Assembly (NCBI RefSeq): GCF_005153485.1
Contig: NZ_CP039740.1
Span: 3,909,001-3,973,000 of the forward strand
Direction: 5' to 3'
DNA length: 64,000 nucleotides
Source of the DNA: Pseudolabrys sp. FHR47
Lineage (GTDB): Bacteria > Pseudomonadota > Alphaproteobacteria > Rhizobiales > Xanthobacteraceae
The notes below the pieces were generated by a model. That model saw nothing but the letters and a program-made list of their open reading frames with translations. It did not search any database and had not been told where the DNA came from. Below, piece by piece: positions 22,455 through 39,576 of this stretch; position 1 is the first letter of the stretch; every line of letters begins with the position of its first letter. Both the position numbers and the translations under genes were made by a program.

Positions 22455-23147
22455 ATGGACTGGATCAGCTTCTACGATTTCAAGCACTCGGTGATCTATG
22501 TGAATGCGCGCCATCGCGACGTTCACTATGAGACCATTGCGAAAGACATCCGCGCGCTGGTGCCCTCGCCCGACGCCATCGTCATGGACTACGGCTGCGG
22601 CGAAGCGACGAGCGCGGCGCTGGTGGCGGAGGCGTGCAAACACCTCACACTGGTCGAGGCGGCGCCGAATGTGCGCGCAGCCTTGCGCGAGCGTTATGCG
22701 GCGAACCCGAAAATGTCGGTGATGAGCCCGGACGAAGCGGCGGCGACGCCCGACCACTCGGTCGACATGATCGTACTGCACTCGGTGGCGCAGTATCTCA
22801 CCGCCGCCGAACTCGACGCCATGATGGCGACGTTCCACCGCCTGCTGAAACCGACCGGCACCTTCGTGCTCGGCGACATCGTGCCGCCGCAGATGGCCTC
22901 GGTATGGGCCGCGTTGTCGCTGCTGAAATTCGGCGCCGCCAACGGCTTCTTCTGGGCCGCGGTCGGCGGGCTGATCCGCATCCTGGTGTCGGACTATTTC
23001 ACGCTGAAGAAGACGCACGGCCTGTCGCACTACACCGAGGCCGAGGCGCTGGCGAAACTCAAGGCCGCGGGCTTCGAACCCAAACGCGCCGCGCACAATA
23101 CTGGCCACAACCAGCACCGCATGACATTCATCTCGAAGCCGGCGTGA
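22455..23147 (+). CDS. Class I SAM-dependent methyltransferase
   Basis: A 230-residue methyltransferase. The SAM-binding glycine loop is VMDYGCGEATSAALVAE (residues about 43-59), with the acidic LVEAAPNV strand after it and the motif HSVDMIVLHSVAQYLT as motif IV. The C-terminal half has a hydrophobic segment (VWAALSLLKFGAANGFFWAAV) that may be a membrane or substrate contact. It starts 11 bases after the XRE-cupin regulator on the same strand, so both may share a transcript. The substrate is unknown. Confidence 0.75.
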   Translation: MDWISFYDFKHSVIYVNARHRDVHYETIAKDIRALVPSPDAIVMDYGCGEATSAALVAEACKHLTLVEAAPNVRAALRERYAANPKMSVMSPDEAAATPDHSVDMIVLHSVAQYLTAAELDAMMATFHRLLKPTGTFVLGDIVPPQMASVWAALSLLKFGAANGFFWAAVGGLIRILVSDYFTLKKTHGLSHYTEAEALAKLKAAGFEPKRAAHNTGHNQHRMTFISKPA

Positions 23148-23200
23148 GCGCCGCCGTGGTTAATAGCGGCGTTAACCGCAATCCAAAATGCCGCAGCCTG

Positions 23201-23230
23201 TTAACGACCATGTGATCGCGGCAGTATAGG
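23201..23230 (+). promoter_or_regulatory. Possible promoter of the tRNA-like gene
   Basis: TTAACG (23201) and TATAGG (23225) with an 18-base spacer, ending 10 bases before the tRNA-like 5' end. A plausible sigma-70 promoter. Confidence 0.35.
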
Positions 23231-23240
23231 CTTCGCACAT

Positions 23241-23316
23241 GGCCCGGTGGCGGAGCGCGTACGCAAAGGACCCCGCAAGGTCCTTCACCCTGGTTCAAAT
23301 CCAGGCTGGGCCTCCA
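23241..23316 (+). tRNA. tRNA-Cys-like gene with enlarged anticodon loop
   Basis: A 76-base cloverleaf with encoded CCA. Acceptor GGCCCGG pairs with CTGGGCC (one G-U); discriminator is T73, the cysteine identity base. D stem GCG/CGC closes a 9-base loop lacking the usual GG. T arm is CCTGG-TTCAAAT-CCAGG. The anticodon arm is abnormal: AAGGA/TCCTT closes a 10-base loop CCCCGCAAGG, which can refold as a 7-bp stem with the 6-base loop CCGCAA; GCA (Cys) is present, but position 33 is not T. All stems are intact, so it is either a recent pseudogene or a specialised tRNA-like RNA. Confidence 0.6.
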
Positions 23317-23430
23317 CTCTTTCAGCCGCTGCCGCGGCGTTGACTTCTCTTCGCCGCTCGCCCGACACTGATCGCCAGCGTCATCGTCCGCGAAAGCGGA
23401 CGACCCAGCGCTTCGAAGAAAGAGCTGGAT

Positions 23431-23452
23431 CCCCCGCCTTCGCGGGGGATGA
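23431..23452. repeat. Dispersed palindrome, copy 3
   Basis: ATCCCCCGC-CTTC-GCGGGGGAT (arms vary by one base) in the context CTGG...GATGACAG, nearly the same as copy 1. It lies between the tRNA-like gene and the AtuA gene. Confidence 0.75.
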
Positions 23453-23482
23453 CAGCGAAGGGGCGGGCCAGGAAACGCGGAC

Positions 23483-24838
23483 ATGGCAGAGCGAATGCTG
23501 ATCGGCGCCGGCGCCGGTTATTCCGGCGACCGCATCGATGCCCCGATTGCCGTAGTGCGTGATCTCAAGGCCTCCGGCGAACGCGCCGCCATCATCTTCG
23601 AAACGCTCGGCGAACGGACCTTGGCGCTGGCGCAATTGCGCCGCCGGGAGAATCCCGGCCTTGGTTATGAGCCGAAGCTCAAAGCCCTGCTGACGCCGGT
23701 GCTCAAGGACTGCGTCGAGTCGAAGATTTCCATCGTCGGTAATTTCGGCGCCGGCAATCCGCCGGCGGCCGCGAAGCTGATCGCCGACCTCGCCGCCGAG
23801 CAGAAGGTGCGGGCGAAAATCGGCGTCGTTACCGGCGACGACATGCTCGGGCCGGAAGGCATCGAGGTGTTGCGCGCTGCGAGCAATGAATTGCCTGACG
23901 ACAAATCGCTGGTTTCCGCGAATGCCTATCTCGGCGCGGCGCCCATCGTCGAAGCTTTGGGCGAAGGCGCCGACGTCGTCGTCACCGGCCGCGTCGCCGA
24001 TCCGGCGCTGACGCTGGGACCGCTCATTCATGCTTTTGGCTGGGCTTATGACGACTGGCACCGGCTCGGCGTCGGCACCATGGCCGGGCATCTGCTCGAA
24101 TGCGGCGCGCAGGTCACCGGCGGCTACTTCGCCGATCCCGGATGGAAGGATGTGCCGGAGCCGGATAACATCGGCTTTCCCATCGCCGCCATCGAACGCG
24201 ATGCGAGCTTCGTCATCGGCAAGGCGCAAGGCGGCGGCCTCGTCGATCGCCGCACCGTCGCCGAGCAACTGCTCTATGAGGTGCACGACCCGGCCGCTTA
24301 TCTCACGCCCGACGTCACCGCCGACATCAGCAACGCTGAGATCGTCGAACTCGGCCAGGACCGCGTGCGCGTCGACGGCATCACCGGGCACCAGCGGCCC
24401 GACACGCTGAAGGTGACGGTCTGTTACGACGGCGGCTGGCTGGCCGAAGGCGAGATCTCCTATTACGGCCCGAACGCGCTGGCCCGCGCGCGGCTTGCCG
24501 CCGATGTGGTGAAGAAGCGCAGCCCGAAGGACATCCGCATCCGCTGCGACATCATCGGCGTGCTCAGCGTGCTCGGCGACGATGGCGGCAGCGCCTTCAA
24601 CGACATCGACTCATTCGGCGAGCCGACGCGCGACGTGCGCCTGCGCGTCGCCTTTGCCGGCAACGACAAAGCGCTGGTCGAGCGTGGTCTGCAGGAAGTC
24701 GAGGCTTTGTACTGCGCCGGGCCGGCGGCCGGCGGCGGCATTCGCCTCGCGCTGCGCCCGCGCATTGCCGCGACCTCATGCTTCATTCCGCGCAGCGCCG
24801 TGACGCCAAAAGTCGAGATCGTGGAGGCGCGGTCATGA
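23483..24838 (+). CDS. AtuA-family protein (DUF1446)
   Basis: A 451-residue protein of the acyclic terpene utilisation AtuA family. The opening LIGAGAGYSGDRIDA, the NFGAGNPPAAAKLI and GRVADPALTLGPLIHAFGW stretches and the late PAAGGGIRLALRPRI are typical. In Pseudomonas AtuA belongs to citronellol degradation, but the family is much broader and its reaction is unresolved; no other atu genes are seen here. AGGAAA lies 8 bases upstream of the ATG. The stop overlaps the next gene's ATG as ATGA. Confidence 0.8.
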   Translation: MAERMLIGAGAGYSGDRIDAPIAVVRDLKASGERAAIIFETLGERTLALAQLRRRENPGLGYEPKLKALLTPVLKDCVESKISIVGNFGAGNPPAAAKLIADLAAEQKVRAKIGVVTGDDMLGPEGIEVLRAASNELPDDKSLVSANAYLGAAPIVEALGEGADVVVTGRVADPALTLGPLIHAFGWAYDDWHRLGVGTMAGHLLECGAQVTGGYFADPGWKDVPEPDNIGFPIAAIERDASFVIGKAQGGGLVDRRTVAEQLLYEVHDPAAYLTPDVTADISNAEIVELGQDRVRVDGITGHQRPDTLKVTVCYDGGWLAEGEISYYGPNALARARLAADVVKKRSPKDIRIRCDIIGVLSVLGDDGGSAFNDIDSFGEPTRDVRLRVAFAGNDKALVERGLQEVEALYCAGPAAGGGIRLALRPRIAATSCFIPRSAVTPKVEIVEARS

Positions 24839-25224
24839 CACGGCTCGAACTGCACGCACTGGCCCATGCCCGCACCGGCGACAAGGGCAACCGGCTCAAT
24901 ATCTCGCTGATCGCCTACGAGCCGGCGATCTATCCGCTGCTCGTGCGGCATGTCACCGAGGCTGCCGTCGCCATGCGCTTCATCCATCGCAAGCCATCGT
25001 CGGTGAAGCGGTACGAACTGCCGAAGATGCACGCGCTCAATTTCGTGCTCGACGACGTCCTCGACGGCGGCGTGACGCAGGCGCTCAACCTCGATTCCCA
25101 CGGCAAGACGCTGAGCTTCCATCTGCTTGGCATGCGCATTCCGGTGCCTGACGAGCTTGCAAAATACGCCAAGGTTGGCGCCCCGGATGCGGCCGCGATC
25201 ATGGACAGCGCTCGGCGCGAATAG
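24835..25224 (+). CDS. AtuA-associated small protein
   Basis: A 129-residue protein that regularly follows AtuA. It has LHALAHARTGDKGNRLNISLIAY at the N-terminus and ALNFVLDDVLDGGVTQALNLDSHGKTL in the middle, both recurrent in the family. It is probably a subunit or partner of AtuA. The ATG overlaps the AtuA stop as ATGA, with GGAGG 8 bases upstream, so the pair is translationally coupled. Confidence 0.8.
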   Translation: MTRLELHALAHARTGDKGNRLNISLIAYEPAIYPLLVRHVTEAAVAMRFIHRKPSSVKRYELPKMHALNFVLDDVLDGGVTQALNLDSHGKTLSFHLLGMRIPVPDELAKYAKVGAPDAAAIMDSARRE

Positions 25225-25656: not shown

Positions 25657-25695
25657 CTTTCAGCCTGAAAGCGCGCGAAAGCGCGCCCTTTTTTT
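25657..25695 (+). terminator. Terminator or attenuator before carB
   Basis: GCGCGC-GAAA-GCGCGC (25671-25686) followed by CC and seven Ts (25689-25695). It is preceded by the overlapping hairpin CTTTCA-GCC-TGAAAG (25657-25671), which shares a base and may exclude it. The T-run ends 31 bases before the carB ATG, so it acts either as the end of the upstream transcript or as a carB attenuator. Confidence 0.65.
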
Positions 25696-25726
25696 GTGCC
25701 CAGTTTCCGGGAGCCGATCCTTCCGC

Positions 25727-29041
<3,315 letters not shown>

Positions 29042-39499: not shown

Positions 39500-39576
39500 T
39501 GGTACAGGCGGGTGGACTTGAACCACCGACCTCCGGTTCCACAGACCGGCGCTCTAACCAACTGAGCTACGCCTGC
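39500..39576 (-). tRNA. tRNA-His (GTG)
   Basis: A 77-base tRNA with encoded CCA. Anticodon stem CCGGT/ACCGG closes the loop CTGTGGA with anticodon GTG. Acceptor GCAGGCG pairs with CGCCTGT (one G-U), and the discriminator is A73. The base before position 1 is T, so no G-1 is encoded. A73 without G-1 is the alphaproteobacterial form of tRNA-His. Confidence 0.93.

Follow-up and report, generated by a model that had tools for sequence, protein, structure and literature searches.

A tRNA-Cys-like gene with a remodelled anticodon arm, probably a non-decoding paralogue, in Pseudolabrys and its family

The window, a 64,000-nucleotide stretch of the Pseudolabrys sp. FHR47 genome, encodes a tRNA-Cys-like RNA whose anticodon stem is extended and ends in a small loop; in most relatives this loop retains GCA. 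On comparison with its relatives, the gene is likely a conserved, expressed, non-decoding paralogue of tRNA-Cys. We lean, with more reserve, towards a fuller reading, in which it is an old, mostly vertically inherited paralogue that left decoding, is presumably charged by CysRS and acts off the ribosome. Counted for this reading are the detection of the gene by two patterns in 144 of the 296 genomes of its GTDB family, the covarying pair that closes the loop, the higher identity of the gene than of its flanks, the promoter score and the pyrimidine at base -1, the low identity of the D-anticodon half, the retained identity letters U73 and GCA, and the presence of a canonical tRNA-Cys in 64 of 64 carriers. 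Counted against it are the lineages without GCA, the empty loci (25 of 30), and the lack of a common partner gene and of a second CysRS.

Results

A tRNA-Cys body with a remodelled anticodon arm

ARAGORN calls exactly the interval of the gene (Table 1) as "tRNA-???", with the four-letter anticodon "cgca" and an undefined amino acid, and the Rfam tRNA model gives no match to the gene at its cut-off and none at E≤1 over 23141-23416. The letters themselves form a cloverleaf, with an intact 7-bp acceptor stem (GGCCCGG/CTGGGCC), an intact D stem (GCG/CGC), a short variable region, and a T arm (CCTGG-TTCAAAT-CCAGG) with a 5-bp stem. The preliminary description of a Cys-type body that keeps the acceptor, D, T and anticodon stems, T73 and CCA is confirmed by this reading. 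U73 occupies 42 of 43 aligned columns, the single exception being a column shifted by an insertion. The D loop lacks GG at positions 18-19, as had been described, and so do 29 of the 43 aligned relatives (GG is present in the other 14). The lack of T33, likewise described, is true of the window gene, in which C precedes GCA, but is not a general trait, since T precedes GCA in 17 of the 26 copies of the genus (L001-L026) and C in the other 9.

Table 1. Features of the tRNA-Cys-like gene and its locus, with a decayed copy and a copy without CCA
Feature	Position	Strand	Basis
tRNA-Cys-like gene, encoded CCA included	23241..23316	+	ARAGORN, sequence, comparison, covariation
Anticodon arm with extended 7-bp stem (AAGGACC/GGTCCTT) and loop CCGCAA	23266..23285	+	RNAfold; arm covariation in 43 relatives
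GCA (Cys anticodon letters) within the 6-base loop	23275..23277	+	sequence; in the 43 aligned relatives, G is kept in 43, C in 42 and A in 43
U73 discriminator and CCA	23313..23316	+	sequence; conserved in alignment
-10-like box TAGGCT, 14 bases before G1	23227..23232	+	position enriched in 95 relatives versus shuffles and ordinary tRNA genes
Weak -35-like box ACGACC, 17-base spacer	23204..23209	+	spacing chosen as the best among several; 3 of 6 consensus letters
Class I methyltransferase (PF08241), usual upstream neighbour	22455..23147	+	Pfam match
Genes for AtuA (PF07287) and an AtuA ferredoxin-like protein (PF23544), separating carB from the tRNA-like gene	23483..25224	+	Pfam
carB, usual downstream neighbour	25694..29041	+	name presumed from translation
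Decayed copy at the usual place	L202:1326-1399	-	covariance model
Copy without CCA at the usual place	L209:1453-1526	+	covariance model

The anticodon arm can be read in two ways, as the preliminary description had pointed out: as AAGGA-[CCCCGCAAGG]-TCCTT, with 5 bp and a 10-base loop, or with two further pairs and a 6-base loop. RNAfold prefers the arm of 7 bp and 6 nt. In either form, the canonical 5-bp stem with a 7-base loop and U33 is absent from the window gene. Because the folding energy of the whole sequence beats that of shuffles only modestly (z-score -1.74; 10 of 200 shuffles fold equally well), the case rests on comparison, and not on a single fold.

In the alignment of 43 genes, standard pairs fill 97.1% of the pair cells, as compared to 92.9% in shuffles that ignore relatedness, and none of the 500 shuffles scores as high. 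In the anticodon arm, 91.1% of the cells are paired, and five of the six pairs have changed on both sides. The extra pair that closes the loop is CG in 22 genes, GC in 8, UA in 4, UG in 3 and AU in 1, and is unpaired in 5, and thus 38 of the 43 genes are paired at this position. The slid controls overstate the pairing of the arm, because the structure was drawn from the same sequences, and we regard the reversal of the closing pair among genera as a firmer fact than either the shuffle or the slid controls. Compensatory changes, which the preliminary description had proposed to look for in relatives, are therefore present. Its suggestion that a sequencing error had lengthened the loop is rejected, as close relatives share the arm.

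A simple hairpin finder, applied to 87 distinct genes, gave arms of 7 bp and 6 nt in 42, 8 bp and 4 nt in 14, 6 bp and 7 nt in 10, and other shapes in 21. It placed GCA in the loop of 80 of these genes, the exceptions being five genes of family f207, L025 (GTA) and L085, for which the finder chose the wrong hairpin and GCA is actually present. The genes lacking GCA in the loop are the five f207 genes, G111, G157 and G188 (all g34), G066 and G021. The f207 genes (L219, L220, L221, L222 and L235, at about 1501-1575), which belong to another family of the order, have the same acceptor and T arms, with a GGGAAC loop in place of GCA. A further relative, L223:1501-1574(-) of family f6, has different acceptor letters and the 8-base loop TGTGCAAG.

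The normal tRNA-Cys and the two halves of the variant

Is the window gene the only tRNA-Cys of its genome? This possibility is rejected: the normal tRNA-Cys, which the preliminary description had proposed to seek elsewhere in the genome, adjoins tRNA-Asn. A canonical tRNA-Cys was found in every carrier examined, in 46 by pattern and in 18 by similarity to the canonical gene of the window's own genome. In each of the 61 genomes searched, made up of 41 carriers and 20 genomes that gave no match to the gene, CysRS (PF01406) has one strong match, with further matches at 44.2 bits or below, and a dedicated CysRS is thereby rejected.

We compared the two halves of the molecule in 35 genomes with both genes. 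The mean pairwise identity of the acceptor-T half is 0.926 (minimum 0.618) in the variant and 0.898 (minimum 0.765) in the canonical tRNA-Cys; the variant figures are biased upward, because the pattern that finds most variants fixes part of this half, and are lowered by G071, with its shifted base. Invariant columns number 19 of 34 in the variant versus 23 of 34 in the canonical gene, so the variant is not the better conserved. In the D-anticodon half, which is free of such pattern bias, the identity is 0.713 in the variant versus 0.906 in the canonical tRNA-Cys, and all 35 variants differ from one another, as compared to 12 versions among the canonical genes. Judged from these figures, the acceptor-T half, U73 and CCA show roughly the conservation seen in the normal tRNA-Cys, and the D-anticodon half appears to change freely.

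Distribution and inheritance

Among 60 genomes searched, matches at E≤0.01 occur in 27 of the 36 genomes of the window genus, its own included, and in none of the 24 other genomes of the order. Within the family, the acceptor-plus-T-arm pattern finds relatives in 141 of the 296 genomes and in 19 of 47 genera, and a second pattern alone adds G148, G002 and G075. Among the matches listed for the former pattern, some carriers have two or three copies. A class-wide scan with a pattern tuned to Pseudolabrys matched 1 of 385 genomes, the window's own. In a scan of named genomes with a 5′-half pattern, 30 records matched, of which 16 are titled Pseudolabrys, four "Rhizobium sp. Q54", two each Bradyrhizobiaceae, Rhizobiales and Proteobacteria, and one each Pseudorhodoplanes, Xanthobacteraceae, Variibacter and Caulobacter sp. 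S45. Many soil bacteria of the family have the gene, and the cultured strain Pseudolabrys sp. Root1462 (NZ_LMFS01000001.1) is among the carriers. The copy in the Caulobacter record, a lichen metagenome (L101:1514-1590(-)), lies away from carA, carB and the methyltransferase gene, and may reflect transfer, old ancestry or a binning error.

Under stricter filters, Model R1 was applied to 219 genomes from the order and matched 30 of them at E≤1e-16. When the letters of its 23 matches outside the family were read, the five f207 genes and L223 proved member-like, and 17 resembled the canonical tRNA-Cys. A tree of short RNAs places the 87 named variants in one clade, with a support of only 0.58. Among L001-L026, the mean pairwise identity is 0.87 for the gene and 0.60 and 0.585 for its 76-base flanks, versus 0.55 for shuffled upstream flanks. 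The plasmids, phages and viral contigs searched contained no match to the gene, and on this basis a mobile origin is rejected.

Is the gene indispensable where its locus is found? A covariance model, built from the 43 aligned genes and run on the 30 methyltransferase loci without an acceptor-plus-T-arm match, added G073, G103 and G071, besides the copies L209 and L202, and found nothing at 25 of the 30 loci. Since L202 is decayed, L209 lacks CCA and most of the loci examined are empty, the gene is, by this comparison, both widespread and dispensable, and appears to have been lost repeatedly. The earlier view that the gene is not a decayed copy is upheld for the window gene, but does not extend to these two copies.

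Locus and neighbours

The methyltransferase gene, carB or both lie nearby at 79 of 95 distinct places (gene plus short flank), and neither lies nearby at the other 16, namely, the five f207 genes, L101, L027, L181 and eight second copies. Where the stretch suffices, the order is carA, methyltransferase, tRNA-like gene and carB; carA and carB, like the cfa-like, dnaB-like, gyrA and coaD-like genes below, are names that we presume from the translations. Four copies (L168, L169, L179 and L182, from g53, g70 and g30) have carB with no methyltransferase within 8 kb, and AtuA-type genes are present at the locus in only some relatives. Of the eight second copies away from the usual locus, five adjoin a cfa-like gene, and three of these five have a dnaB-like gene on the opposite side. 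The f207 copies follow gyrA in all five cases, with a coaD-like gene within reach in three. No common partner gene or donor enzyme was found at the loci examined. This pattern speaks for the mostly vertical descent of one locus plus duplications, apparently without a working link to the neighbours. The link with the methyltransferase is probably syntenic only. A general functional link to the methyltransferase or carB is rejected, considering the places without either neighbour and the intervening AtuA-type genes in the window.

Just 3′ of the gene, at 23380-23455 of the window, are two inverted-repeat stretches, GTCCGCGAAAGCGGAC and CCCCCGCCTTCGCGGGGG, which resemble dispersed palindromic repeats. 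The only other tRNA in the window is an ordinary tRNA-His at 39500-39576(-).

A promoter-like box close to G1

Where would transcription of the gene start? We compared the upstream regions of 95 distinct variant stretches, uncorrected for their kinship, with those of 77 ordinary tRNA genes (42 mixed and 35 canonical Cys). The base just before the gene (-1) is a pyrimidine, C or T, in all 95 variants, versus 33 of the 42 mixed tRNA genes and 8 of the 35 canonical Cys genes; this alone proves no start site, since a pyrimidine there would also keep the base from pairing with U73. The two-box promoter score, for which the -10 box was anchored at -14..-12 once the base -1 comparison was known, averages 7.25 for the variants, 5.35 (sd 1.29) for shuffles and 4.95 for 76 control tRNA genes. 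In a scan of all offsets, the -10 box of the variants peaks at -12 to -14, and that of the controls near -20. Because of this peak 12-14 bases before G1, transcription would start at or beside G1, as predicted from the position of the box. The box in the window itself is weak; the promoter-like sequence of the preliminary description is supported through the enrichment of its position over the 95 relatives. This placement suggests a bacterial tRNA that possibly needs no 5′ trimming.

Other odd tRNA-like genes near second copies

A class II, Ser-like tRNA-like gene lies right after a second Cys-like copy at L172:4109-4194(+), and is also present in L143, L145, L155 and L173. In this gene, a 4-bp hairpin with a tetraloop (CCGC-TAAC/TAGC-GCGG) replaces the anticodon arm, and the gene has U73 and CCA. 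In L157, the start of such a gene is visible before the contig ends, and no such start is present in the window. Between two Cys-like copies, L177:4201-4273(+) is a Gly-like tRNA gene left untyped by ARAGORN (anticodon "cc"); its loop reads as the six bases TTCCAG, and it ends in U73-CCA.

SerRS does not read the anticodon, and for this reason an anticodon-less Ser-like RNA and a GCA-keeping Cys-like RNA both fit the rule of keeping what the synthetase reads. A simple Ser reading is made less likely by U73, since Ser tRNAs usually have another letter at this position. That the Cys-, Ser- and Gly-like RNAs form a set that left decoding to serve as aminoacyl donors in an undescribed pathway is a speculative and rather unlikely proposal; if it were true, each RNA would keep what its synthetase reads and drop what the ribosome reads.

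Discussion

Comparison with known tRNAs

How does the gene differ from the canonical bacterial tRNA-Cys(GCA)? The two share the cloverleaf, U73, CCA, a similar D arm and, in most relatives, GCA. In contrast, the anticodon stem is longer and the loop smaller than the canonical 5 bp and 7 bases, GG at 18-19 is mostly lost, the acceptor and T-stem letters differ, and the promoter lies nearer G1. The window gene has the identity letters U73 and GCA, while the f207 genes and a few others lack the complete pair, and it fails the general tRNA model, with no Rfam match and no amino acid from ARAGORN. The chief determinants of Cys identity are reported to be U73 and GCA, with U73 sufficient by itself on minihelices (PMC9976931).

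Other non-standard tRNAs offer partial parallels. The selC* tRNA-Cys of anaerobic bacteria, as described in PMC7609411, has an 8/4 acceptor/T arrangement, a bulged A and a long variable arm, and is accompanied in some cases by an extra selB* or cysS*. Both are additional tRNA-Cys genes of non-standard form that have U73 and, in most cases, GCA. The present gene differs in its 7/5 arrangement and its short variable region, and none of the 61 genomes has a second CysRS. The same paper describes tRNA-Pyl and other tRNAs with a longer anticodon stem, which have a 6-bp stem and lack GG at 18-19 (PMC7609411). The lengthened stem and the missing GG are shared with our gene, but these tRNAs decode with a codon-reading loop and their own synthetase, unlike the tRNA-Cys-like gene. 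The non-proteinogenic tRNA-Gly of Staphylococcus aureus serves the cell wall and has changes described for EF-Tu binding (PMC9976931); as here, extra tRNA copies are thought to be kept for off-ribosome work, with conserved elements lost. The present gene differs in its Cys-like body and remodelled anticodon arm, and the user is known for the tRNA-Gly. An extra copy beside a normal isoacceptor, as in off-ribosome tRNAs, is found in all of the carriers examined.

Nanoarchaeum equitans is an organism without RNase P. Leaderless tRNAs are reported for it (PMC10100707). Their transcripts probably begin at the mature 5′ end. The start predicted for our gene is at the same point, but concerns one paralogue only and is deduced from the promoter position. 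Among the literature matches listed, titles and abstract openings gave no description of the gene, and the main text of two Bradyrhizobium papers (PMC5082802 and PMC4842269) has no word beginning with "tRNA".

Proposed role and alternatives

We propose the following scheme. With a stem too long and a loop too small, the arm would be unable to present a codon-reading 7-base loop, so the RNA would not serve as an ordinary elongator. Its U73 and GCA are the letters that CysRS reads, and CysRS would probably still charge it. The RNA, charged or not, would then act away from the ribosome, by donating Cys to some enzyme or by engaging CysRS or cysteine sensing. Taken separately, charging in the cell stands at slightly under an even chance, and donation of Cys is a tentative possibility, with the loss of GCA from the loop in some lineages and the repeated loss of the gene against it. 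The genes without GCA may have moved to another role, may rely on U73 alone, or may be on their way out. Among the roles listed in the preliminary description, that of a non-decoding tRNA fits best.

Alternatively, the RNA could be regulatory or serve as a decoy: as a mimic of tRNA, it would use its loop and body to bind CysRS, an enzyme that modifies or cuts tRNA, or a toxin, and would donate no amino acid. Such an RNA would keep GCA and the tRNA body but not decoding, and would fit a dispensable gene, a fast-changing arm with its pairing kept, and loci examined without a donor enzyme. However, a mere decoy does not need U73 and the encoded CCA, which are kept, and the loci reveal no partner for it either. 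We consider this alternative unlikely, if worth weighing.

Chance retention of a slowly decaying tRNA-Cys pseudogene would agree with the repeated absences, the decayed L202 and the CCA-less L209, the loss of GG and in part of T33, and the failure of Rfam to recognise the gene. It is very unlikely, given the compensatory changes in the arm, the much higher conservation of the gene than of its flanks, and the promoter-like box at a fixed distance in many genera. Mutations unconstrained by pairing or by the gene bounds, as in a tRNA pseudogene, are confined to L202 and L209.

A working decoder, that is, a frameshifting or special tRNA-Cys reading UGY or a longer codon via a loop of 8-10 bases, seems more improbable still. 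Frameshift suppressors with loops of eight or more bases are known, and a pyrimidine precedes GCA in nearly all of the genes. The frameshifting role considered in the preliminary description is nevertheless disfavoured, as covariation maintains the very pair that makes the loop smaller; moreover, GCA is missing from the loop of the f207 and some other genes, and a normal tRNA-Cys accompanies the gene in every carrier examined. Finally, a cis-acting element of the methyltransferase-carB region, such as an RNA-processing or carB leader signal, is the least credible, since, despite the usual presence of one or both neighbours, two AtuA-type genes separate the gene from carB in the window, the places with neither neighbour include several beside cfa or gyrA, four carB-side copies lack the methyltransferase in their 8-kb stretch, and the gene has its own promoter-like box.

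To our knowledge, dedicated non-translational tRNAs occur in few bacteria, and none is known for cysteine. The gene described here is widespread yet dispensable, has a promoter-like box of its own, and combines conservation of the acceptor half with remodelling of the decoding half. If the RNA is indeed a non-decoding paralogue that acts off the ribosome, it would point to a new use of Cys-tRNA or a new control of CysRS or cysteine in these bacteria.
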